Part shown: one piece after another, positions 24,902-53,713 of the stretch
Position numbering within the stretch: the first letter of the stretch is position 1
How the letters are laid out: each line of letters starts with the position of its first letter
Origin: Haloferax mucosum ATCC BAA-1512
GTDB lineage: Archaea > Halobacteriota > Halobacteria > Halobacteriales > Haloferacaceae
Direction of reading: 5' to 3'
Assembly: GCF_000337815.1 (NCBI RefSeq)
Contig: NZ_AOLN01000011.1
Coordinates: 186,001-250,000 of the forward strand
DNA: 64,000 nt
The notes under the pieces: generated by a model
Seen by the model: the letters and a program-made list of their open reading frames with translations, nothing else
The model's database searches: none
What the model was told of the DNA's origin: nothing
Translations under genes and position numbers: made by a program

Positions 24902-24974
24902 GGGACCGTGGGTTAGCCTGGTATACTTCGGGCCTTGGGTGCCCGTGACCCCGGTTCAAATCCGGGCGGTCCCA
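24902..24974 (+). tRNA. tRNA-Pro (TGG anticodon), integration target
   Basis: The acceptor stem GGGACCG pairs with CGGTCCC. The anticodon stem CGGGC/GCCCG carries loop CTTGGGT with anticodon TGG. The T-arm CCCCGGTTCAAATCCGGG is intact. A BRE/TATA (ACGAAACGCTTTACTCC) lies about 30 nt upstream. Its 3' end is repeated 28 kb away, so a mobile element has integrated here and restored the gene's 3' end. Confidence 0.95.
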
Positions 24975-25041: not shown

Positions 25042-25137
25042 GTGACCCACGAGTGCCCCACGTGCGGTCATGACAGCGAAAAACTTCATCGCTGCGAGCA
25101 CTGTGGCCGGGACCTCGTCGGGAGTGATCAGCAGTGA
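25042..25137 (+). CDS. 31-residue zinc-ribbon protein
   Basis: The GTG-started ORF reads MTHECPTCGHDSEKLHR then CEHCGRDLVGSDQQ. Two CxxC knuckles 14 residues apart make a complete mini zinc ribbon. Its stop overlaps the start of the next gene (GTGA), the coupling seen throughout the element. It probably works with the replication protein encoded downstream. Confidence 0.65.
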   Translation: MTHECPTCGHDSEKLHRCEHCGRDLVGSDQQ

Positions 25138-27251
25138 GCGACGACGCTCCTGGCGAGGTCGTCGCGGAGTTCTCTGTCCTCGACGAAGCAGACATCGTCA
25201 CGTCGGACGAAGACGACACCGTCGCGTCCGCAGTTGAAGGCGAGTACACTCCAGACCACCTCGACGAAGACGTCCAGGACGAGCGCGACCGCATCGAGTT
25301 CGAGATGCCGGAGTACGTCGCGGCATGCCGCTACTGCCAGGCGACGTTCGAAACCGAAGAAGATGCACTCGCTCACGAATGGAACTGCGACCTCGAACCG
25401 ACCGGAGAGTGTCGCTTCTGTGGCGGCACACACATCCGCAAGGACGTCCGCGAGGACCACTTCTACTCGTGCGCCGAAGCCGAGCAACACGCCCGCCAAC
25501 TGAAGCGTGGGTCGCGTGCTCGGACGATGCGCGGACAAAACGCCACGCAGGGTCTCGCCGCACTCCGGCAGTTCCTACTCCCGCAAGAACACGAGTTCGC
25601 GGCGTACCTCAAGTGGGACAAGTCGCTGAAAACCTACTTCGGACTCGTCTCACTCTACAAAATGCACGATTTCGAGGAGCACGGAAACTTACGTGCTGGT
25701 CTCGAATATGGAGGCGAAGAGTGGACTATCGAGTTCGGTTACGCCGATAATCCCGGTCTCGCAGTCCCCGACGACGATACTGATCTTGGACCCTACGACT
25801 GGCGTCTCGAAGACGTCCCCGAGTTCCTCGTTCGGGTCTATCCCGCGAGCTACGACTCTTGGACGGCCGCGAAAGACGACAACCGAAAACGTGCATACTT
25901 CCGAGTCCGTCCGCGCTGGCCCGGTGTCGAGTCGAAAAGCGGGAAGTCGATTCCGAACCCGCACGGTATTCTCGGCGTGGACGTCGAGACGCGCGGGAGC
26001 TACTTCGAATTCACAGACTACCCGAGCCTACTCTACCACGCGCTTGCCGAACTGCGAGAGCGGCAAAACGCCTTTGGATGGAACTCGTTCACCGAGATCA
26101 ACGCGGAGTTGTGCCACCCCGATAGCCTTCACGCCTCGTCGAACATCACCGACGCGGAGCTGTACGTCCGCGCGAAGAAGGGCGAGACCGGCAAGGTGTT
26201 CGCTATCGACGGGACACTTCACCGGATTTCGTTACTGTTGAGCCGTGAGCGGAGCGGCTACGCGAAGAGTGTTCGAGATGATACGGGATGCGAAGGGTAC
26301 TACCACACGGCGACGATCTGCGCGATGCGCGCCGCCGAGGTCGTCGGTGGACACGAACTCCCGAAGGAGTTCAAACACTACCACGTCCGCAACCCCGATG
26401 CCGTCGAAGGAACGCCACTGGAGAACCCGAAGATTGGTGTCTCCTATCAGAACTCGCTGTACGACGATGTCCTCCGATTCAAGGACGTCGAGAGCCTTTA
26501 CAAGGAACTCGAAGAGGGATTACTGAACGTCCTGAACTGGTCCGACCTCCCGGTGACACCGGACCACCAGAAGTACGTCGCGGACGACTACTTCCGCGTC
26601 GACGGCGAGGCCCGAATGGTCAAAGTCATCGATAACCCGCTGCCGCGTATCGCCCAGCAACAGGACGACGAGGTTCGGCTGTTCGCCGCCGCGAACAACC
26701 TCTACGAGACCGACGTGTCGATTGCCGACGAGTTGGTGACCGACGGCGGCCAAATCTCGCCGGCCGACCTCGCCGAGCGGATTGGCGTCCACATCGATAC
26801 CGTCTATCGCGCGCTGAAGCGCCTCGGCGACCTCGTGATTCACGAATACGGTCACGTCGAGCTCGCTTCGAAGCACATCGCGGAGGGGATCGTCGAGCAC
26901 ATCGAGTCCGCTCGACGCTCGGTCTCCGCGACACTCGAAGAAGCGACGGAGGATATCATCCGCGCAGACACCTACGGCGATGGTGACGGTCCGTGGGAGC
27001 GCTGGCTTCGGAATTACGTCCGCGAGCGGGCAGATAACCGTGAGGACGGACGTGAACGCCTTGAGCTTGCACCGCAGGCGACGCGCCAGGAGGTCAAGCG
27101 TATCCTTCGGACGGGTGCCGCGAAGTGGGCAGAGGTGACTGGGAACGACTGGAAGCAGTTCGCCCGCGAGTTCGCTGTTGTCGGTGAGGCCTACGACACC
27201 TCCGCTCCGTTGACATACAGCTTCGGTGAACTGCGTCAGCTCGTCGGCTGA
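25134..27251 (+). CDS. Large zinc-finger/winged-helix protein, probable replication protein
   Basis: The protein has 705 residues. After an acidic N-terminus come Cys/His clusters (ACRYCQATFETEEDALAHEW at about 66, then ECRFCGGTH). The central 400 residues have no motif I recognise. A winged helix follows near residue 545 (ISPADLAERIGVHIDTVYRA, then LKRLGDLVIHEYG). Proteins with this layout are common at one end of haloarchaeal integrated elements, and I take it to be the replication initiator or its helper. That is inference from position and domains; no nuclease or helicase motif is visible. Confidence 0.6.
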   Translation: MSDDAPGEVVAEFSVLDEADIVTSDEDDTVASAVEGEYTPDHLDEDVQDERDRIEFEMPEYVAACRYCQATFETEEDALAHEWNCDLEPTGECRFCGGTHIRKDVREDHFYSCAEAEQHARQLKRGSRARTMRGQNATQGLAALRQFLLPQEHEFAAYLKWDKSLKTYFGLVSLYKMHDFEEHGNLRAGLEYGGEEWTIEFGYADNPGLAVPDDDTDLGPYDWRLEDVPEFLVRVYPASYDSWTAAKDDNRKRAYFRVRPRWPGVESKSGKSIPNPHGILGVDVETRGSYFEFTDYPSLLYHALAELRERQNAFGWNSFTEINAELCHPDSLHASSNITDAELYVRAKKGETGKVFAIDGTLHRISLLLSRERSGYAKSVRDDTGCEGYYHTATICAMRAAEVVGGHELPKEFKHYHVRNPDAVEGTPLENPKIGVSYQNSLYDDVLRFKDVESLYKELEEGLLNVLNWSDLPVTPDHQKYVADDYFRVDGEARMVKVIDNPLPRIAQQQDDEVRLFAAANNLYETDVSIADELVTDGGQISPADLAERIGVHIDTVYRALKRLGDLVIHEYGHVELASKHIAEGIVEHIESARRSVSATLEEATEDIIRADTYGDGDGPWERWLRNYVRERADNREDGRERLELAPQATRQEVKRILRTGAAKWAEVTGNDWKQFAREFAVVGEAYDTSAPLTYSFGELRQLVG

Positions 27252-28674: not shown

Positions 28675-29295
28675 TTACCGGAAATTGAGATGTGCCATTG
28701 CGCGTGAGGTCACGTGGTCCGGCACAGGGCCGAGGTAATTCCGCCGGAACGTCTCACGTCCAGAATCGGTCATCGCCCAGCCACCCCACGCCATCGTCAG
28801 CTCCTCGGCAATCGGAACTCCCTCGAATGCAAGTGAGTAGAACGTATCCGTCGCCCACGTTCGGCGAAGGTCGTGCATCCCGAGGTCGTGCCATCGGTCG
28901 TCGTCGAGGTCGTCGGCCAACTGCTCGCGCGCCTCGACGATCCAGTCTCGGAGCGAACGAGTCGATACGTCGATGACCGGCTCGTCGGCACGCATCCGCG
29001 CCGCGGACTTGAGGTACTTAACGCGCTCGCGTAGAGACCGCGAGACTGGCGTGTCACGTGTCCCGGTCTTCCCGTTCGGGACAGTGAGTCGCCACTTCCC
29101 CTGGTCGTCGAGGCGTTCGAAGTGTCGCGGCTCGACGTTCCGCACTTCGTCGCTACGGAGACCGTGGAGTGCGAGGTCCAGAGCGATGCGTCGACGTGGG
29201 TATTCGTCCTCGACGAGCGAGAGGAGTTTAGCCTGCTCGTCGCGGGAGAGCCATAGTCGCTTTCCTGCCTTCGACGGATATGGACGTGCCTGCAT
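28675..29295 (-). CDS. Catalytic-domain-only tyrosine recombinase
   Basis: The protein has 206 residues. The first catalytic Arg is in LALHGLRSDEVRNVEP. The HxxR box is MHDLRRTWATD. A late W/H-box position reads AWGGWAMTD, and the probable nucleophile Tyr is in FRRNYLGPVP. No N-terminal core-binding (SAM-like) domain is present, so it is about half the usual length. It may act on a separate site, or help the main integrase at 51880. Its promoter region is shared with the CRISPR leader side. Confidence 0.8.
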   Translation of the reverse strand: MQARPYPSKAGKRLWLSRDEQAKLLSLVEDEYPRRRIALDLALHGLRSDEVRNVEPRHFERLDDQGKWRLTVPNGKTGTRDTPVSRSLRERVKYLKSAARMRADEPVIDVSTRSLRDWIVEAREQLADDLDDDRWHDLGMHDLRRTWATDTFYSLAFEGVPIAEELTMAWGGWAMTDSGRETFRRNYLGPVPDHVTSRAMAHLNFR

Positions 29296-29341: not shown

Positions 29342-29551
29342 TCGGGTGGGGTCGATCAAGCCGGGAATCAGGCCGATTTGGTGGCCTCGGGGTGTCGGAG
29401 GTTACGAGAATAGCCGATTCTCGGAAGTTCGTTTCGAGGATTCTACCTGAATTTCCATCGACCCCCCGGGGGTTTGGGGCTATTGGAGGTCGACAGAAAC
29501 TGTTGAGTGTGAGCAGTGCGTAGGAGGCTGTGTGCCCCTGAATTGGGCATG
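29342..29551 (+). promoter_or_regulatory. Putative CRISPR leader
   Basis: About 200 nt without a gene lie between the recombinase and the first repeat. It contains a hairpin at 29405-29423 (CGAGAAT/ATTCTCG, 5-nt loop) and a C-run/G-run palindrome near 29460. In Haloferax I-B arrays the leader is on the 5' side of repeats in this orientation, so transcription probably runs left to right. A clear TATA box is not evident. Confidence 0.45.
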
Positions 29552-30242
29552 GTTACAGACGAACCCTAGTTGGGTTGAAGCGTCTTGCTCGAACCGTCGC
29601 CGTTCGAAGACCACGGCGTTACAGACGAACCCTAGTTGGGTTGAAGCTCGGCGTACACGTTCGACGAGCCGGTAAGGTTCATCGTTACAGACGAACCCTA
29701 GTTGGGTTGAAGCTCCAATTGGATCGTCCACCGGCTCTGGCGGCGGTCGAGTTACAGACGAACCCTAGTTGGGTTGAAGCAAAGTTGCCTACCTCACCGA
29801 CCAGGGATACGAGGTGTTACAGACGAACCCTAGTTGGGTTGAAGCCGTCGTCGTGAACGCCGTGCACCAACTTAGGCGCGTAGTTACAGACGAACCCTAG
29901 TTGGGTTGAAGCGACCTCGCGCCAGTTCACTTCAGCGACGCTCGCGCGGGTTACAGACGAACCCTAGTTGGGTTGAAGCCGTTCGCACTTTACGGTGGCA
30001 GATACACGGCTAAGCGTTACAGACGAACCCTAGTTGGGTTGAAGCGCGGATGGTGGTCGCACATGCATCGGCGACGACCTCGTTACAGACGAACCCTAGT
30101 TGGGTTGAAGCCTTCGTGAACCGCGTTGAAGCGATAGGCGTACTCTGTTACAGACGAACCCTAGTTGGGTTGAAGCGTCCAGCGTATAGCCGATGATACC
30201 CTCCGACCGATAGTTACAGACGAACCCTAGTTGGGTTGAAGC
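29552..30242 (+). CRISPR. CRISPR array, 11 identical repeats and 10 spacers, no cas genes
   Basis: The 30-nt repeat begins GTTACAGACG and ends GGGTTGAAGC. Repeats start at 29552, 29618, 29684, 29751, 29816, 29883, 29950, 30016, 30082, 30147 and 30213, all identical as far as I can read. Spacers are 35-37 nt. The repeat differs only at a few positions from known Haloferax volcanii I-B repeats, so a chromosomal Cas6 and Cascade could process it. No cas gene lies in the element. The terminal repeat is not degenerate. The 220 nt after it hold nothing I recognise. Confidence 0.97.
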
Positions 30243-30462: not shown

Positions 30463-30687
30463 TCACCGCTCCAGTATCTCGACTCGCTTTTCGTAGAACT
30501 CGTGCTCGGCCTCGAGGAGATCGCGCTGCTCGTCAACGTCAGCAGGATGCTCTATCGACACCAGCAACGACACCAACCAGACTGGCAATCTCGACTTGCC
30601 CTGGAGTGACGCCATCGTGTCCTCGATATCAGACAGCCGAGACCGACAAAACCCGAGTTTGATCCGACGGCGTAAGCGACGGATCAT
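30463..30687 (-). CDS. Small helical protein coupled to the methyltransferase
   Basis: The protein has 74 residues from the ATG at 30687, which overlaps the methyltransferase stop by 4 nt (ATGA). It opens MIRRLRRRIKLGFCRSRLSD, and a C-terminal charged helix (QRDLLEAEHEFYEKRVEIL) follows. A longer start at 30747 would overlap the previous gene by 64 nt. Function unknown. Confidence 0.55.
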   Translation of the reverse strand: MIRRLRRRIKLGFCRSRLSDIEDTMASLQGKSRLPVWLVSLLVSIEHPADVDEQRDLLEAEHEFYEKRVEILER

Positions 30688-31205
30688 CGCTGGACCTCCA
30701 AGGCGACGCTCCACGAGTCGATCCCGAACAACCCGAACGTATCGCACATCCAGAGTGCGAGCCGGTCACTCGGCAATAGGCGACCCACACGCACACGAGA
30801 CACGGACCACTCCACTACCGACAGCTCTGGAAACAGCCAGTCATCGTCGAGGAACTCAACTGGATGCATCTGACGTGTGTGATCAATCCGAGCTGAGGAT
30901 GGATTGTTCGGGTACGGTGCGACGATCTCCAAACGACCGCCCGGAGCAAGCACTCGAATTGCTTCGAGAATCGCCTCGACTGGATCGACCAGGTGCTCGA
31001 GGACATTATCGAGAAGGATACGCTCTGCTGAGTCATCCGGCCACGGCCATGGCGTCTCGTTGAGATCGTGTATCTCGTCAGGCTCAACAACGTCGCCTTG
31101 AACGCCCATCTCTCCAGGACGGTAATCGACGTTGAGCCACCCCTGTTTGATGTCGTCACCACACCCGAGGTTGAGCTTTAGCGGCGATGCGACTCGATTG
31201 CTCAT
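30684..31205 (-). CDS. SAM-dependent methyltransferase (class I)
   Basis: The protein has 173 residues. The SAM-binding motif I is LKLNLGCGDDIKQGW, and motif II/III-like stretches are ILLDNVLEHLVDPVEAI and RVLAPGGRLEIVAPYP. It resembles small methyltransferases acting on sugars or metabolites. It has no target-recognition domain or DPPY-type catalytic motif, so it is unlikely to be a DNA methylase. In an element it might modify a surface glycan or virion component. Confidence 0.78.
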   Translation of the reverse strand: MSNRVASPLKLNLGCGDDIKQGWLNVDYRPGEMGVQGDVVEPDEIHDLNETPWPWPDDSAERILLDNVLEHLVDPVEAILEAIRVLAPGGRLEIVAPYPNNPSSARIDHTRQMHPVEFLDDDWLFPELSVVEWSVSRVRVGRLLPSDRLALWMCDTFGLFGIDSWSVALEVQR

Positions 31206-31367
31206 CGTACACCTCCCGAAGACCCCGCGGGTAGCGCGCTCGCCGGGCGGACACGCGAAGAAACGCCGAAGGACTGCCGAAGGCGACGACCCGACGAACC
31301 GCCACTTGCGTATCTCAATTTAATATAAACACTATAGGGGGAGGGGGTGGGGGTGTGTCCCGACGGA
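31206..31367. other. Intergenic region with a TATA-like element
   Basis: TTTATATTA read on the minus strand (about 31321-31329) is a possible promoter for the methyltransferase pair, with a 5' leader near 95 nt. A C/G-rich run lies beside it. Otherwise nothing is seen. Confidence 0.35.
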
Positions 31368-32321
31368 TTACATGACATCGAGGTCTGCCTCCCGAACGAC
31401 GTATTTCTTGATTTGTTTCGACTCGGCTTCGCTCACACCGTAATCCATCTTCAGGATGTCGCGGTCGAAGTACTCACCGCCAGAGGCTTCACTGATGTAC
31501 TCCTCAACGCAATTCTCGTCGAGGATTTCCTTCGCTACCTCCATCGGTGACAACTGCTCGGCCTCAGCCTGCTCGTTCTCAGCGCGCACCCGTTCAAGCA
31601 GGTCCTCGATCAGGTCGTCCGTGTACTCTCCCTTCGTCGCCTCGTACTCCCTCACAAGTTCGGGTGATGGGAGTTGGAACTTCATCCACTTGTGCCGTCG
31701 TAGGACACCATCGTCGCCAATCATTCGATGGTACTTCTTGTACATCTTCCCCGTCTCGTTGTTCGTCTGGATGTACTTCCAGCGGGCCTTCGAGAGACCT
31801 GCAGATTCGTCCTTTCCGACCATGATACCGAGGTGATGAAACCGGCGTTGGACGTGTGAGTCGATGAGATCGAAGTCCGGTGCGGTCATGATTGCGCCGT
31901 GGTTGCGGTGTCGCCACGTCTGCGTTAAGGCGTCAAGCACCTGATTCGCAACCGTGTACCAATTGCGGTTCCCTGCAGCGACACCTGTCTCTTCGAGCAC
32001 GAGAATTGACCCTTCGGGGAGGTCCGACGCCGCCAGTTCGAGGAACTCCTCAACGCTGTAAGTCACACGGCTAACATCGAAGTTCGGGTCGAGAGCCTCC
32101 GCGAGCCTCAGTGCCGCGTAGGACTTCCCGTCACCAGTTTCGCCAGCAAGGAAGCACATCCAGTTTTCGTTATAGACGTTCATCCGCGGCCACACTTTCC
32201 GACGGAGAATCAGGTTCTCGCGGACTCTGTCAGGCATCTCCGGGTAGTAGCTCGAGAGGTTCTGTGGAGCGGTATGGGCCGCCATCCGATCAACAATCTC
32301 CGGCTCGGCTTCCGAACTCAT
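31368..32321 (-). CDS. P-loop ATPase, possible packaging or secretion motor
   Basis: The protein has 317 residues. Walker A is AGETGDGKSYAALR (about residue 60) and Walker B is ILVLEETG, followed by GAIMTAPDFDLIDSHVQRRF, which looks like a sensor/arginine region. It resembles Zot/FtsK-like ATPases of archaeal viruses and plasmids. The C-terminal 100 residues are helical. Overlap with the next upstream gene is 4 nt. It sits divergent to the membrane operon at 33321-43481 and could energise DNA packaging or export of its products. Confidence 0.75.
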   Translation of the reverse strand: MSSEAEPEIVDRMAAHTAPQNLSSYYPEMPDRVRENLILRRKVWPRMNVYNENWMCFLAGETGDGKSYAALRLAEALDPNFDVSRVTYSVEEFLELAASDLPEGSILVLEETGVAAGNRNWYTVANQVLDALTQTWRHRNHGAIMTAPDFDLIDSHVQRRFHHLGIMVGKDESAGLSKARWKYIQTNNETGKMYKKYHRMIGDDGVLRRHKWMKFQLPSPELVREYEATKGEYTDDLIEDLLERVRAENEQAEAEQLSPMEVAKEILDENCVEEYISEASGGEYFDRDILKMDYGVSEAESKQIKKYVVREADLDVM

Positions 32322-36035: not shown

Positions 36036-38972
36036 ATGCCACTTCCCGGAGACGTCGGTGATTCGTCGCCCGATGATCGAGAGGCCGCCAGAGAGTACGA
36101 AGAGGACGTCCGAGACGCACGTGACGAGAGCCGTGAGAGAGCCAACGACAATGATGGTGGAAGCTCCTCGAGTGACTCTTCCTCGTCGTCCGGCTCATCA
36201 TCCAACGACTCCAGTCGGGAGGCGGACCGCGAGGCCGTCGAGCAGTACAAAGAGCAGGTCAGGGAGATAAAAGACCAGAAGGACCAGAACTCTAACGACG
36301 ACGAGTCGAAAGACAAGCAAGACTCGACGTCGTCCGCCTCGTCTCCGCAATCGAATCGTGACCGGGACCGCGAGGTGATCAACCGATACAAAGAGCAGGT
36401 CAGAGAAACAAAGAGTGAAAACGAGCGTCGCAACCGAGACAAAGACCGGGACCGGTCGTCGCCGGAAGTCATCAATCGAACGGGCGATATTTCGACCGAG
36501 AACTCACTTATCCAGCGACAGATCAACAAGTACGAGCACAGTATCGACCAGCAGTACGGCGACCGTCTCGGAAACGACGATTACCAGTACGTCGTAAAAG
36601 ACTCCGGGCAGGTCGAAGTCAGGCTGACCGACTCGGGGAGAGATAGGCTTCAGGACAGCCGAGAACTCGAGGCTGTCGAACAGCGCGCTCGGAGTAGTGT
36701 CGATGGGGGTGTCAAGCGAATCGAGATTAACGAAACGTTCGAAGACGGTTATACTGCCACCGTCTACACTGCAGACGGCCGTGAAATCGAACAGCGGTAT
36801 TCCTTCTCTGAGGACGCGTCAGAGAAGTTCGCAGAACGTGCCCGGGAACGACGGCCGACAAATCATACGGGGTCGTTCATCGACACTAACCGACAGGGAG
36901 AAGGAGTCGTGCGGACGGTCAGTTCGGAACAACTTGAGCGCCAGCGCGATGCGCTGGAAGGGATTGGAAGCAGTGAACGTGAGCAAGCGCGGGACCGCAT
37001 CGCCAAGAAGCACGGTGTCGATCCTGAACAGCTGGGCAACGTTCGGCTCAATGATGAGGGCCGGTGGGTCGCAACTGTCGAACGCGAGCAGAAGCCGTCC
37101 GAACGGCCTGACGAGGAGTTCGGTGACCTCCCAATTAAGCTTGGTAACGGCAAGCGCGTCGAAGACTATCTTCGCGCTGGATCCGCCACCTACGACGACT
37201 TGGTCAAGGGTGCTGTTGATTTCAATTCGTATAATCCCATCATGATTTACAATCGGAAAGTTTTCGAGGCTGTCACACCACACGCACCAGATTGGTTCAA
37301 CAACCTCAGTATTAACCCCGAAACCGGCCGGCCGCGTGGCGAAGAATTTGTGCGTGGCGGTATCTCCGGTGCTGGACAGATTCTGAATGTTCCTTCGGTT
37401 GTCCTCGGACTCAAAGAAACCGGTGAGTTCATCGGCTACGCCGCCGCTGAAACCGTGAAAGGACAAGGCGAAGAGTTCGTGGGTGACGTCGATGAAGCGG
37501 TTGGTGCAGCAAGAACAGAGCTCGACAAAGCACTAAATGAGAGACCTGGTCGTTTGTCTGGGGAAGTTGTGGGATCGCTCGTTGGGTCTGTCGGAGCAAT
37601 GGGTACTGCGGCAAGATACTCGGGACGTGCAGGCCGCGTTGCTCGGTACGCTATCCAACCTAGCGAAGAGATACTCAGCGACACCGCAACCGCAGTGCTT
37701 TCGCGGTCTGCACGCGGCCAGCGCGTCCTCAACAAGATTCCCGGCGGCCGCCTCGACAACGAAGAGATTGCCTACGCCATCTACAAGCGTAGTGTGAAGC
37801 CCAGGGCTTCGAAGCTTTCGCGGCGTATCCGACGCACTAAGAACAACTTCGTCCACGAGTTCGCACATCAAGAGGCCTCCAAGATCAACAAGTTCGTCCG
37901 TGATTCTGGACGCGGTCAACTCGACCTCGCCGGACCTCGTGGCCGCGATGCTGATGCGTCAAACAAAGTAGAGGCAGATGACATTGCTGAGCCAATCGAC
38001 GAGCGGAGAGAGCTTGCACGGCAAGCCCAAAAACAAGTCGAATACGAAACAGCACAGCGCTATGGCGATGTGGTTACTGACCGTGTCCCAGAGTACGAAG
38101 AGCGGCAGACGTTCGACCCCGGTCCTGGTGCTGATTCGAACGATATTAGCTCATGGGTGCGTCCGTTAGGTCTGAAATCATCATCTGAACCGGCCACACG
38201 TAATGGTTGGCGGTCTCACACACGTAGCGAGGTCGAAGAATGGGATTATCCATATGGACGGACCGTCGCTGAAAACTTTCGAAACAGTCAGCGAAGGAAA
38301 AGTGTACCAGAAATCGACCTACGAGTCGCGGATTTCGTGGATGTTGTGGATGCCGTGGATGTGCAGATCAAACGTCAGCGACAAGCCCTCGATCAAAGTC
38401 TTCGTGGACCACAAAAGCGTCGTAAGCAAGCGACAGAACCGAGTGTCAAACCCGAAACGGAGTCCATCGCACGCCAGCCCACTGGCGCGGAGATTGATAC
38501 GCCTGACCCAGTTGAGAAAGAACGCGAGCGTCTCGACGCCGCAGGTCGAACTGCAGTACGTCCATTTGAGACGGACCTGACGACAGACCTCGAACGCGAA
38601 CTTGACGGCGAGACGACGGTCGAACTCGAACCGGAATTCGAGACCGAACCTGTCTATGAGATCGAACCGGAACCCGAACTCGAACCGGAATTCGAGACCG
38701 AACCTGTCTATGAGATCGAACCGGAACCCGAACTCGAACCGGAATTCGAGACCGAACCTGTCTACGAGGTGGAGCGTGAGATCGAACCGGAACCCGAACT
38801 CGAATCGGAATTCGAGTCCGAATACGAGCGCGAACGTGAGCGCTGGCCCAAGGACGCGACAGACAACGTCTTCGATGAAGATACAGGCGGGTTCGGTGTC
38901 GATGAGGATGTCTGGCGGTCGTCCATCGCCGACGCTGACGACCTGCTCCGTGATCTTTGGAGTGATTTCTGA
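36036..38972 (+). CDS. Large repeat protein, likely scaffold or tail-like protein
   Basis: The protein has 978 residues. The N-terminus has three related charged repeats (EYEEDVRDARDESRER, QYKEQVREIKDQK, RYKEQVRETKSEN) joined by Ser-rich linkers. The middle holds a folded domain and a Gly/Ala-rich hydrophobic patch (LSGEVVGSLVGSVGAMG), which could insert in a membrane. The C-terminus has three tandem acidic repeats. Size, repeats and position match a structural or tape-measure role. A catalytic motif is not seen. Confidence 0.75.
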   Translation: MPLPGDVGDSSPDDREAAREYEEDVRDARDESRERANDNDGGSSSSDSSSSSGSSSNDSSREADREAVEQYKEQVREIKDQKDQNSNDDESKDKQDSTSSASSPQSNRDRDREVINRYKEQVRETKSENERRNRDKDRDRSSPEVINRTGDISTENSLIQRQINKYEHSIDQQYGDRLGNDDYQYVVKDSGQVEVRLTDSGRDRLQDSRELEAVEQRARSSVDGGVKRIEINETFEDGYTATVYTADGREIEQRYSFSEDASEKFAERARERRPTNHTGSFIDTNRQGEGVVRTVSSEQLERQRDALEGIGSSEREQARDRIAKKHGVDPEQLGNVRLNDEGRWVATVEREQKPSERPDEEFGDLPIKLGNGKRVEDYLRAGSATYDDLVKGAVDFNSYNPIMIYNRKVFEAVTPHAPDWFNNLSINPETGRPRGEEFVRGGISGAGQILNVPSVVLGLKETGEFIGYAAAETVKGQGEEFVGDVDEAVGAARTELDKALNERPGRLSGEVVGSLVGSVGAMGTAARYSGRAGRVARYAIQPSEEILSDTATAVLSRSARGQRVLNKIPGGRLDNEEIAYAIYKRSVKPRASKLSRRIRRTKNNFVHEFAHQEASKINKFVRDSGRGQLDLAGPRGRDADASNKVEADDIAEPIDERRELARQAQKQVEYETAQRYGDVVTDRVPEYEERQTFDPGPGADSNDISSWVRPLGLKSSSEPATRNGWRSHTRSEVEEWDYPYGRTVAENFRNSQRRKSVPEIDLRVADFVDVVDAVDVQIKRQRQALDQSLRGPQKRRKQATEPSVKPETESIARQPTGAEIDTPDPVEKERERLDAAGRTAVRPFETDLTTDLERELDGETTVELEPEFETEPVYEIEPEPELEPEFETEPVYEIEPEPELEPEFETEPVYEVEREIEPEPELESEFESEYERERERWPKDATDNVFDEDTGGFGVDEDVWRSSIADADDLLRDLWSDF
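38622..38829 (+). repeat. Tandem 54-nt repeat inside the large protein gene
   Basis: Two units of 54 nt (38622-38675 and 38676-38729) are nearly identical; a third carries a 12-nt insertion and a fourth is partial. They encode 18-residue units such as ELEPEFETEPVYEIEPEP. They keep frame and could vary in copy number. Confidence 0.85.
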
Positions 38973-43481: not shown

Positions 43482-43576
43482 TTCGGTGACCGAATCTTTC
43501 TCAATTCTTCCTGCGTTCGACTACTTTCACTGTGGTTTGCAATTATTGAAATCCCGGTATTGCGAAGGGTTTGGGC

Positions 43577-44581
43577 ATGATACGCGACGCCCGGGCACTT
43601 CGGGACAACTTCGTCCCTGCAGATCTAGAACATCGAAATGCCGAAATCGGTCATCTCTCGTCTTATCTCGCTCCGATTGAAGACGACGAATCTGGTGAAG
43701 ATATCCTGATTACCGGACCGTCGGGTGCTGGCAAAACAACACTCGCCAAATTCGTCACGGCTGAACTCGAACGTGCGACACTCGGAGCGAGGTCTGCCTA
43801 CGCCAACTGCCTCTCGAACTCCACGAATGCTGGTGTCCTACACTCTCTGATGCGTGATGCGAACCTCGGCATCGAATTCGACCGTGGAAGCACTCCCGTC
43901 GGCGAGTATCTCGACAAAATTCGGGACCTCGACGAACAGTTTGTTGTCATTCTCGATGAGGTGGACGTCCTCGAAGACCCGTCGCTGGTTGCGATGCTCT
44001 ACGATGTCCCGAACGTGACGACGTTGATGGTTTGCGTCTCTGAGGACGCGTTTCTCACTGGACTGGATATGCGCGTCTCCTCGCGGGCACGTGCCGCGGC
44101 GTCAGTAAAACTGGAGAAGTATCGTGACCGGGAGATTGCAGATATCATTCGCGCTCGCGTCGAGTACGGTCTCGATCCGGGTGCGGTCGATGAGGCGACT
44201 ATCCAGCACATGGCATCACTCGCGGCCGGTGATGCTCGCCTCGCTATCACGAATCTCCGACGTGCTGCGGAGCGTGCCGATCAAGATGATCTCAGTGCGC
44301 TTAGTCCCGGTCTCGTGGACGAGGTCGCCGACGGCGCGGCTGGCGAAGTCCACGAGCGGAACGTTGAGCGTCTCTCGACACACAAGCGACTCCTCTATGA
44401 TATCGTCCACGAGCACGGTGAACTCCCTTCGTCGGAACTCCACGCTGAGTACGAGCGGCGAATCGGCTCTGCAAAATCGAAGGTGACGCGCCGACGCTAT
44501 CTCGGTGCGCTGGAACGCTATCGACTCATCGAGAAGGAGGGTGCGACGAGAGGAACCCGGTATCGGCTTGTCGAACCTTAA
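43577..44581 (+). CDS. Orc1/Cdc6 family replication initiator
   Basis: The protein has 334 residues. Walker A is TGPSGAGKTTLA, Walker B VVILDEVDVLE, and sensor 1/2 regions are LMVCVSEDAFL and LAAGDARLAITNLRRAAE. A C-terminal winged-helix domain ends the chain (KSKVTRRRYLGALERYRLIE). It lacks the longer N-terminus of chromosomal Orc1 copies. It probably replicates the excised element. I see no ORB-type origin repeats next to it, so the origin may be elsewhere, possibly near 27387-27520. Confidence 0.88.
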   Translation: MIRDARALRDNFVPADLEHRNAEIGHLSSYLAPIEDDESGEDILITGPSGAGKTTLAKFVTAELERATLGARSAYANCLSNSTNAGVLHSLMRDANLGIEFDRGSTPVGEYLDKIRDLDEQFVVILDEVDVLEDPSLVAMLYDVPNVTTLMVCVSEDAFLTGLDMRVSSRARAAASVKLEKYRDREIADIIRARVEYGLDPGAVDEATIQHMASLAAGDARLAITNLRRAAERADQDDLSALSPGLVDEVADGAAGEVHERNVERLSTHKRLLYDIVHEHGELPSSELHAEYERRIGSAKSKVTRRRYLGALERYRLIEKEGATRGTRYRLVEP

Positions 44582-44684: not shown

Positions 44685-45011
44685 ATGTCCCGAACCACCG
44701 CAACCATTCCAAACGATCTCACCGACCTCATGAAAGGGGCTGTCAAAGCGGGTATCTTCGAAAACAAGAGCGATGCCATTCGCCACGTCTTACGGGCATA
44801 TTTCGAAGAAAACGAGAACGCGCGGATTGCCGCCGCGGTATCGCTTTACGACGACGGGGAGATTACCTTGGGAACTGCTGCCCGCCTCGCTGGTGTCAAC
44901 CGATTCGAGATGAGAGGCATACTACGAGAAGAGGGAATCGAGCTACGATTCGGCCCCGAAGATATGGCTGCCGCGAGAGACGAAATAGAAACCGCTCGTA
45001 ACCTCGAATGA
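44685..45011 (+). CDS. UPF0175-type antitoxin
   Basis: The protein has 108 residues. It has an RHH-like N-terminus (TTATIPNDLTDLMKGAVKAG, then FENKSDAIRHVLRAYFEE) and a C-terminal helical part (AARLAGVNRFEMRGILREEG) typical of UPF0175. It overlaps the following PIN-like gene (ATGA). A TATA element (TCATATAATG) lies at 44649-44658. Start 44685 is favoured by that TATA; an in-frame ATG lies 30 nt upstream. Confidence 0.78.
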   Translation: MSRTTATIPNDLTDLMKGAVKAGIFENKSDAIRHVLRAYFEENENARIAAAVSLYDDGEITLGTAARLAGVNRFEMRGILREEGIELRFGPEDMAAARDEIETARNLE

Positions 45012-45514
45012 CGGAAGTACCGAAGAACGCGACAGTACTCAACACTACTGTCCTCTCGAATTTTGCTCAGGTGAACCACGTTGAGTTGTTATTGGACTTA
45101 CCGCGACTCGTGACCGTGGATGCTGTCCAAGAAGAGCTCGAAGAAGGAACTGAGTCCCACCTGTATCTTGAACATGCATTAGCCGTACTGGAAGAAGGAA
45201 TCCCCGTAGTCACTCCGTCTTCCTCAGCAGAGAGATTAGAAGAGAAGCTTTTGGAAACGTTGGACCCTGGAGAAGCGCAGGCTATAGCCGTTGCAGAGGC
45301 CGCCGATGGAATCGTCATCACTGACGATGGGGATGCGCGTGCTACTTCGAAGCAACGTGGCGTGGGCTTGACCGGGTCAATTGGACTCTTGGTGCGTTTC
45401 GTCGAAGACGGTGAAATCTCGGCAGAGACTGCTGATGAGTACCTCAAACGCTGGATCGATGAAGCTGGATTTCGTTCTCCCGCTCGTGACTTCGCCGTCT
45501 TTCTTGAAGAGTGA
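45008..45514 (+). CDS. PIN-like (DUF3368-type) putative toxin
   Basis: The protein has 168 residues. Conserved PIN positions are visible: N-terminal NTTVLSNFAQVN, mid LDPGEAQAIAVAEA, and ITDDGDARATSKQ. These carry the acidic residues of a PIN nuclease-like site, with Asn/Thr at the usual first Asp position. It pairs with the upstream UPF0175 protein as a toxin-antitoxin-like unit, and may be an RNase. Confidence 0.78.
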   Translation: MTEVPKNATVLNTTVLSNFAQVNHVELLLDLPRLVTVDAVQEELEEGTESHLYLEHALAVLEEGIPVVTPSSSAERLEEKLLETLDPGEAQAIAVAEAADGIVITDDGDARATSKQRGVGLTGSIGLLVRFVEDGEISAETADEYLKRWIDEAGFRSPARDFAVFLEE

Positions 45515-48627: not shown

Positions 48628-48782
48628 ATTGACGACTCTCACCGGATACTACAGGTCCAAAAGTCCCGGACCCCTGCTGGAACAGGAATCCGGTCGAGGG
48701 TCGTCGGCCATGATGACGACCGCTGAAACCCTCTCGGGGGCGAATGATAAATCCCCCGACACGACCTTCGAACAGTCTGCAA
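48628..48782 (+). repeat. Leader repeat copy 1 with truncated ORF start
   Basis: 155 bp closely matches 49840-49997. It begins where transcription should start and includes a hairpin (GGTCC at 48654-48658, GGACC at 48668-48672). It encodes the first residues of a small protein from the ATG at 48710 (MMTTAETLSGANDK...). After 48782 the frame runs on without homology (IEVPSKKFAAEV), so the ORF is cut off from its normal continuation. Confidence 0.85.
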
Positions 48783-49839: not shown

Positions 49840-49997
49840 ATTGACGACTCTCACTGGATGCTACAGGTCCGAGCAAAAGTCCGGACCCCTGCTGCCACAG
49901 GAGCCCGGTCGAGGGTCGTCGGCCATGATGACGACCGCTGAAACCCTCTCGGGGGCGAATGATAAATCCCCCGACACGACCTTCGAACAGTCTGCAA
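49840..49997 (+). repeat. Leader repeat copy 2, intact promoter-proximal leader
   Basis: 158 bp matches 48628-48782, with a small indel. The first 85 nt would be untranslated RNA. It includes a hairpin GGTCCG/CGGACC (49866-49871 and 49882-49887, 10-nt loop). The rest encodes the start of the zinc protein at 49925. An 85-nt structured leader is unusual in haloarchaea, where most messages lack one. Confidence 0.85.
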
Positions 49998-51762: not shown

Positions 51763-51883
51763 TGTGTACGTTGAGGAGTGCCCAGTGTGCGGGACGAAGT
51801 GCGTCGGAATGACTGCGGAGGATTTTCGGGACGTGCAGGTTGTTGATGGTGAAGTTGTCCACCGAGCGAGGTGGTTGCTGTGA
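51755..51883 (+). CDS. 42-residue zinc-knuckle protein
   Basis: GTG start 8 nt inside the previous gene's end. It begins MTDVYVEECPVCGTKCVGMT, then AEDFRDVQVVDGEVVHRARW. CxxC...C spacing is retained. Its stop overlaps the integrase start (GTGA). Confidence 0.6.
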   Translation: MTDVYVEECPVCGTKCVGMTAEDFRDVQVVDGEVVHRARWLL

Positions 51884-52905
51884 GTGGTCCGCGTGACCTG
51901 TCGCCTCGTGACGCTTGGAAGCGGTACATCGACAGACGGCGGACCGAACTCACCGATGGGTCGGCCGATTCCTACCACTACCGCCTCAAGCTCTTCGGCG
52001 CGTGGTGCGAGGAGCGCGGTATCGAGACCGTGTCCGAACTCAACGGCTGGCTTCTCGACGAGTTTCGCGCTTACCGTGCCGGTGAGGGGATCGCCCCGAC
52101 CACGCTCCACAACGAGATGGAGACGCTACGCGGGCTTGTCGAGTACCTCGAAAACATCGGTGCCGTCGAGGACGGTCTCGCAGAAAAGGTCGATGTTCCT
52201 CGAGTCTCCGAAGACGACCAATCACGCGAGACCAAACTGACCACCGACGACGCACTCGAACTCATCCAGTTCCACCGGTCGAACGATGAGACCTACGGCT
52301 CGCTTTTCCATGCGTTTCTTGAAGTCGCGTGGCACACCGGCGCTCGACTCGGTGCGCTTCGCGGCCTTGATCTGCGTGATTTTAACAGCGATGTGGGCTA
52401 CGTCGAGTTTGTCCACCGACCCGAGACCGATACTCCGCTGAAAAACAAGCGGAAGGGCGAGCGCATGGTCAAACTGCTTCCTGAGGTCGTCGATGTTCTC
52501 CAGGAGTACATTGCGAATGACCGTTGGTCGAACCACGATGACCACGGTCGGCAGCCACTTTTTACCTCAACTCGTGGCCGTCCTGGTCGAAATACCGTTC
52601 GTGTCTGGTCTTATCGCGCGACGATGCCGTGCGTTCATGGCCCGTGTCCTCACGGTCACGACCCGCCAGATTGCGAGTTCCGTTCGCACTCTCACGCGAG
52701 TAAGTGTCCGTCGTCGAGGGCACCGCACCACATCCGTACCGGGTCGATCACTTGGCACCGTGACCGTGGCATCCCGAAGGAGGTCACCGCTGAGCGCGTG
52801 AACGCCTCGCAACGTGTGATCGACCGCCACTACGACACCGCCACGAAGCTCGAAGAAATGGAACTGCGGAGAGGCCCGCATCTCGATAAATTGAGCCTTA
52901 ATTAA
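51880..52905 (+). CDS. Tyrosine integrase of the element
   Basis: The protein has 341 residues. An N-terminal core-binding domain (YIDRRRTELTDGSADSYHYR) is followed by the catalytic domain: first Arg in HTGARLGALRGL, then HHIRTGSITWHRDRGIPKEV (HxxR box), and the nucleophile Tyr in VIDRHYDTATK. A Cys/His-rich segment (PCVHGPCPHGHDPPDCEF) lies before the HxxR box; similar insertions occur in haloarchaeal integrases. It should recombine the att site 195 nt downstream with its partner. A GTG start at 51880 overlaps the gene before. Confidence 0.88.
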   Translation: MSGPRDLSPRDAWKRYIDRRRTELTDGSADSYHYRLKLFGAWCEERGIETVSELNGWLLDEFRAYRAGEGIAPTTLHNEMETLRGLVEYLENIGAVEDGLAEKVDVPRVSEDDQSRETKLTTDDALELIQFHRSNDETYGSLFHAFLEVAWHTGARLGALRGLDLRDFNSDVGYVEFVHRPETDTPLKNKRKGERMVKLLPEVVDVLQEYIANDRWSNHDDHGRQPLFTSTRGRPGRNTVRVWSYRATMPCVHGPCPHGHDPPDCEFRSHSHASKCPSSRAPHHIRTGSITWHRDRGIPKEVTAERVNASQRVIDRHYDTATKLEEMELRRGPHLDKLSLN

Positions 52906-52993: not shown

Positions 52994-53258
52994 GGTTCGA
53001 AACCGGGCGGTCCCACTCTTTGTGCGAAGAACAACGTGATGAGCCAAAGAGTGACAACCGTCCGGGTTTGAACCAGCGAGCGAACGCAGTGAGCGAGTGA
53101 GGTTCAAATCCGGGCGGTCCCATTTTGACTCAAACTTGACATTCGAGCACCGCGTAGCGTGTGCGAGGGACACCGGGTTCGTGGGAGATGGACAAAGACG
53201 GCTTTGAACCAACGAGCAACTCGTTGCGAGCGAGATTCCAAATCCGGGCGGTCTTATT
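52994..53258 (+). repeat. attR and flanking att-like remnants
   Basis: attR is 53101-53124, identical to attL. Two degenerate copies flank it: 52994-53015 (ends CCGGGCGGTCCCA) and 53234-53258 (ends CGGGCGGTCTTATT). An inverted repeat (53061-53074 versus 53101-53114, 12 of 14 matching) surrounds attR. The stretch from about 53067 to 53131 has a diverged second copy near 53213-53265. These suggest repeated integration or excision at this tRNA. Confidence 0.75.
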
Positions 53259-53713
53259 TTGACGCGAATTTACCCACCTTCGACGCACCGGAGGTTACGA
53301 AAATAGTCGTTCCTCGAAGCTGGTCAAAATCGGACGATAACGACAGTGATTCGAGCTACTCCTCTTCGCTCTCAATTATCTCCAATATCTTCTCGGTTTC
53401 CGATTGAATAGACCCAACATCTGCGGATTCAAAAACCACTCTCAATTCCTGCCACTGGGACTGTCTAGTTGATGACTACCCCCGACCGACGTTCGTCCGT
53501 CGAGCAATTGCTGTAGTCTCTGGAAAATTATCGTATTACGCAAGTTGTATGAACCACTCACAGACGCTTCTGTGACTACCCACCCACGAATTATGGACTC
53601 CTCGCCGTGTTCGCACGTCTTGAAACTCGCAGTGGATGACGACAGCCTCGAAGTGTGATATCTAGAGAAGCCACCGAACGAGCGCTAAATCCGCAGAGTC
53701 GAGTTATCGAGCC
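53125..53713. other. Gene-poor stretch after the element
   Basis: No convincing gene is seen. A 33-nt segment (about 53290-53322) resembles 29397-29431 beside the CRISPR leader. On the minus strand near 53360-53466 an acidic coding-like tail ends in a stop without a start, so it may be the decayed end of a lost gene. Confidence 0.45.

Follow-up and report, generated by a model that had tools for sequence, protein, structure and literature searches.

Viral CRISPR arrays devoid of cas genes are already known. In the Sulfolobales portogloboviruses SPV1 and SPV2, mini-CRISPR arrays, which by definition hold one or two spacers, combine host-type repeats with a leader and are presumed to employ the host Cas proteins in trans, and their spacers match related viruses (PMC6858448). 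The cyanophage N-1 carries a leader of about 120 bp followed by five repeats and four spacers, the repeats being similar to those of the host and the spacers having no database matches, and transcription of this array was shown (PMC4916379). In addition, a provirus of Haloferax lucentense, reported to share synteny with other proviruses of the genus, carries arrays together with its own interference genes, cas3, 5, 6, 7 and 8, but no adaptation genes, and relies on host functions (PMC12596717); this provirus is probably of the type represented by the lemon-shaped virus LSV-48N.

The array reported here lies at positions 29552-30242 (+ strand) of the window, the 64,000 nucleotides of Haloferax mucosum ATCC BAA-1512 that were analysed. 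It consists of 11 perfect copies of the 30-nt repeat GTTACAGACGAACCCTAGTTGGGTTGAAGC, starting at 29552, 29618, 29684, 29751, 29816, 29883, 29950, 30016, 30082, 30147 and 30213, and of ten spacers of 35-37 nt, all unique; 11 identical 30-mers at a spacing of 65-67 nt cannot have arisen by chance. An earlier note on this DNA had placed the array exactly, including its end at 30242, between a small recombinase and a methyltransferase, and these neighbors were confirmed as a 206-aa tyrosine recombinase (28675-29295, - strand; PHROG integrase, 94% identity with CDS25 of LSV-48N) and a small SAM-dependent methyltransferase (30684-31205, - strand; Pfam Methyltransf_11, PHROG methyltransferase). A 128-bp leader (29424-29551, + strand), absent from the feature list of the note, is also part of the locus. 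As in SPV1 and SPV2, a set of host-type repeats with a leader resides in an archaeal virus without cas genes, but with ten spacers the array falls outside the strict mini-CRISPR class (PMC6858448), it is carried by an integrated provirus, and its spacers found no match in the collections searched. It likewise resembles the array of cyanophage N-1 in being viral and cas-less, in the length of its leader, in its host-related repeats and in the lack of database matches, with the differences that the repeats are here identical to those of the host and number 11 rather than five. In contrast to the H. lucentense provirus, and as the earlier note had claimed, the element showed no cas genes among its main ORFs in scans with Pfam, PHROGs and PADLOC, and Cas7 was found in this genome on another contig, C14, alone; this puts the array outside the adaptation-deficient I-B class as well. 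Its leader, moreover, is close to that of the host. What is new, accordingly, is a viral locus with ten spacers, a complete host-type leader and host-identical repeats but no cas genes, and no earlier report of this array was found in the literature searched.

The claim that the array sits within an integrated element of 28 kb was borne out, and the bounds of the element, 24975-53015 (28.0 kb), are given by an LSV-48N-type att site, by the ends of homology and by relatives that are free of the element. On its left the element adjoins a tRNA-Pro gene (TGG; 24902-24974, + strand, predicted by ARAGORN), which serves as integration site and whose 3' end (24957-24974) contains the attL core, and on its right attR (52998-53015) carries the LSV-48N attP core GGTTCGAAACCGGGCGGTCCCA. 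The left arm that follows the tRNA corresponds to the opposite side of the LSV attP, and in two relatives (G027 and G028) the sequence that the window shows from position 53123 onwards comes immediately after the tRNA. Homologues of 25 of the 37 LSV-48N proteins are present in the window, in matching order, among them a DUF7845 protein assigned by PHROG as a transcriptional regulator (25134-27251, + strand; 74% identity with CDS26), a 317-aa ATPase (31368-32321, - strand; 88% identity with CDS23), an Orc1/Cdc6-type AAA ATPase (43571-44581, + strand; 79% identity with CDS06) and a full-size tyrosine integrase of 344 aa (51871-52905, + strand; 90% identity with CDS30). The 317-aa ATPase has one relative among phage records, that of the cultured LSV-48N from Haloferax sp. 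Atlit 48N (PP151251.1; PMC12714723), and a search for the LSV ATPase in IMG/VR and PLSDB returned no match. Judged by its colinear gene set, its blocks of DNA homology and its tRNA-Pro-type att core, the element is a provirus of the LSV-48N family.

Several further features of the element and its surroundings may be mentioned. Two more att-like copies, at 53105 and 53239, lie in the short stretch beyond attR (53016-53260), and relatives carry other DNA at the tRNA-Pro gene, which is a site of repeated integration. A gene for a virion-type protein of 978 aa (36036-38972) contains 18-bp tandem repeats (38567-38848), and a 117-bp direct repeat of 97% identity (48666-48782 and 49881-49997, 1.2 kb apart) is found near the homologues of LSV CDS01 and CDS37. 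A PIN-like protein (45008-45514) that matches the PADLOC candidate PDC-S70 is encoded behind a small, likely antitoxin ORF, and the two are probably toxin-antitoxin cargo.

Within the provirus, the array occupies a slot whose content varies among relatives. Homology with LSV-48N, with Halogeometricum limi and with a third relative (G040) ends at 29426-29428 and restarts at 31199-31210, so that LSV-48N-homologous DNA is found on both sides of the array, well inside the att-bounded element. The slot, delimited by the small recombinase and, as its right border, by the 317-aa ATPase, is filled in the provirus by the leader, the array, an ORF of 94 aa without family match or assigned function (30463-30747, - strand) and the methyltransferase. 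Its content is unrelated in the other genomes, with about 0.5 kb and a small ORF in LSV-48N, which belongs to the same virus family as the provirus, with its genes in the same order and the same att core, but has no CRISPR repeat, 2.9 kb in H. limi and 7 kb in G040. Neither LSV-48N nor the stretches retrieved from nine other relatives showed a CRISPR array; some of the stretches are short contigs, and some of the relatives are distant (ATPase identity of 32-43%).

The origin of the cassette is indicated by its leader. Together with the first repeat, the leader of the provirus displays 94% identity with that of an array on contig C7 of the same genome, and the leaders of contig C8 and of one array on contig C14 (C14b) are 91% identical to it, while others in the genus reach 78-86% or less. 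The block common to the provirus, C7 and C8 begins at one point, some 128 bp upstream of the first repeat, within otherwise unrelated surroundings, and in the provirus LSV homology stops at 29428, close to this sharp left boundary. Such a common start points to the capture of a leader-array cassette from the host lineage, and the distal end, which has no degenerate last repeat, unlike several other arrays of the genome, fits a capture that was truncated. One position of the leader stands apart. At 29495 the provirus has an A where 22 of 22 other aligned Haloferax leaders have a G, the conserved block GGTCGACGGAA thereby reading GGTCGACAGAA, and this change could weaken adaptation or transcription. 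A scan of the window for bacterial promoters and terminators was disregarded, as it is not applicable to archaea. A second array to have this 128-bp type of leader, on contig C7 (1-2825), adjoins a tyrosine integrase of 355 aa, and another mobile element may therefore also carry an array.

The host offers the machinery that the provirus does not encode. Contig C14 holds a type I-B operon, cas6-8b-7-5-3-4-1, whose genes matched above the NCBIfam cut-offs in a search that did not include cas2, and this operon is located between two outward-facing arrays with a repeat identical to that of the provirus. The earlier note, which looked to a cas locus with a matching repeat elsewhere in the genome, had considered the viral repeat close to the Haloferax I-B repeats; the match holds but "close" was too weak a word, the repeat being identical to that of the arrays beside the cas operon and occurring 78 times in the genome. 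From six leaders and six distal ends we estimate about six arrays; the published H. mucosum genome (3,371,699 bases) was listed with 16 CRISPR clusters and 7 cas genes (PMC3404096). Two other loci of the genome may be noted. Contig C9 (49.7 kb) has pieces of an array at both ends, on the same strand, with a likely Orc1/Cdc6 gene, recognised by eye, beside the leader, which suggests that this contig is a circular plasmid bearing an array. The second spacers of arrays L038 and L039 are near-identical (TACCAGCGAGGAATTGCAGTGC...), with few differences, suggesting that variants of a single invader were sampled more than once.

In the I-B system of Haloferax, a fitting repeat and transcription are all that an array requires in order to use the endogenous proteins. 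In H. mediterranei, in fact, crRNAs supplied on a plasmid function together with the Cas proteins of the cell, and each of the six native arrays undergoes processing (PMC8387396); for H. volcanii, both the PAMs and the seed have been established (PMC4390866). The identical repeat at the host operon and the matching leader thus lead us to expect that the host Cas proteins, as the earlier note proposed, should process the viral array and would probably also extend it. We hypothesize, with reasonable though not strong confidence, that a temperate LSV-48N-family virus captured a host-derived I-B leader and array, which are used in trans through the I-B proteins of the host. According to this hypothesis, a host-type leader and array entered the variable slot between the small recombinase and the ATPase; transcription would be driven by the leader now carried by the virus, host Cas6 would cleave the pre-crRNA, Cascade (Cas5-7-8b) and Cas3 of the host would turn the ten crRNAs against incoming DNA, and Cas1-Cas2-Cas4 could insert new spacers adjacent to the leader on the virus. 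What would probably be gained is the exclusion of competing viruses and plasmids, the host being protected as well and the protection travelling with the virus to new cells. Superinfection exclusion has been proposed for SPV1 and SPV2 (PMC6858448) and, by analogy, is a likely advantage here. The presence of both recombinases and most LSV genes in the provirus, and the position of the cassette exactly in the slot that varies among relatives, are in agreement with the capture. On the other hand, LSV-48N has been reported to repress, in its own host, the cas genes and the acquisition of spacers (PMC12714723); such repression would counteract any borrowing of host Cas and would set a built-in tension between such a virus and the very genes that its array would need, and the spacers themselves could predate the capture.

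The spacers were proposed in the earlier note to be directed against rival elements or viruses, a proposal that found no match in the collections searched. The ten spacers, concatenated, matched nothing in PLSDB and INPHARED, and no match was obtained in 170 haloarchaeal genomes of the family and 392 of the order, or in the LSV relatives, for which shuffled controls were included. Exact patterns from five of the spacers revealed no target in IMG/VR, where the four matches of spacer 10 could not be extended (20-24 of 36 positions) and the exact repeat was also missing, and neither a self-target of the viral spacers nor a host spacer against the provirus was detected. The search itself was able to find targets, as published anti-LSV spacers recovered LSV-48N in a positive control. 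Among about 66 host spacers, around half of which were tested against plasmids, a single credible match to phages or plasmids was obtained, namely to the pHK2 integrase (33/35, PAM TTC). Since about one in 66 host spacers matches anything and the databases barely cover the enemies of this host, the negative result for the viral spacers weighs little, and the pHK2 match shows that the arrays carrying this repeat take up pieces of mobile elements next to the PAM that is usual in Haloferax.

Spacer 3 (29714-29750, + strand) gives a further indication, as its last 25 nt are the first 25 nt of a terminal spacer on contig C9, on the same strand, from which it follows that two arrays of the cell sampled the same target sequence. 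If the C9 spacer, which is flush with the contig end, is complete at 36 nt, the bases that precede the overlap in spacer 3 are ATC where TTC is usual, and spacer 3 may then record an invader that escaped the older C9 spacer by a change of PAM. A simple copy of another array of the genome was rejected, because no whole spacer is common to the arrays. Likewise, none of 302 spacers of other Haloferax was shared with the provirus.

Part of a host array might instead have been picked up by recombination and be maintained as a passive passenger, perhaps transcribed, which is of use to the host alone or to neither and from which the virus gains nothing. We regard this as unlikely, although it would account for the missing viral and plasmid targets, for the distal end without a degenerate last repeat, as in a truncated array, for the unique leader change at 29495, and for the occurrence of the array in one provirus only, nine relatives having none. 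Decay, however, should give degenerate repeats, and here both the leader and the first repeat have been retained, with no defect in any of the 11 repeats; moreover, the overlap of spacer 3 with a target sampled by another array of the cell also speaks against a mere passenger. The identity of the repeats is of no use as a clock. New CRISPR repeats are copies of existing ones, and nearly all repeats of the other arrays of the host are identical too, hence the recent spread read from this identity in the earlier note does not follow. It is considerably less probable that viral repeat RNAs occupy host Cas6 and Cascade and thereby dampen immunity. LSV-48N does suppress the host CRISPR system, though by lowering cas transcription (PMC12714723), and viral repeat units are known as RNA anti-CRISPRs (PMC10651486), but the known Racr decoys are solitary or degenerate repeat units that have no functional spacers, a class outside of which 11 perfect repeats, ten unique full-length spacers and a leader fall, being far beyond what a decoy needs. 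Finally, a wrong joining of an array from elsewhere in the genome to proviral DNA is hardly credible, for even though contig breaks coincide with most other arrays in this draft assembly, the present one is assembled completely, from its leader to the sequence past its distal end, within a contig of 562 kb, with unique spacers and with LSV homologues in the right order on both sides.

Capture and use in trans, the reading that we prefer, would have consequences for this family of viruses. The occurrence of a leader and array of host type in the cargo slot of a virus implies that immune memory itself can be mobile. A bolder extension, which we put forward as a doubtful idea, is that the provirus acts as a vehicle of transmissible and updatable immune memory, written by the Cas1-Cas2-Cas4 proteins of the host and carried by virions to new hosts. 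In what appears to be a single group of archaeal viruses, one published provirus has interference genes without adaptation genes and the one described here has the guides only. Viruses that rent the CRISPR machinery of their host would, in this group, be directly amenable to testing, given the genetically tractable Haloferax and the cultured relative LSV-48N.
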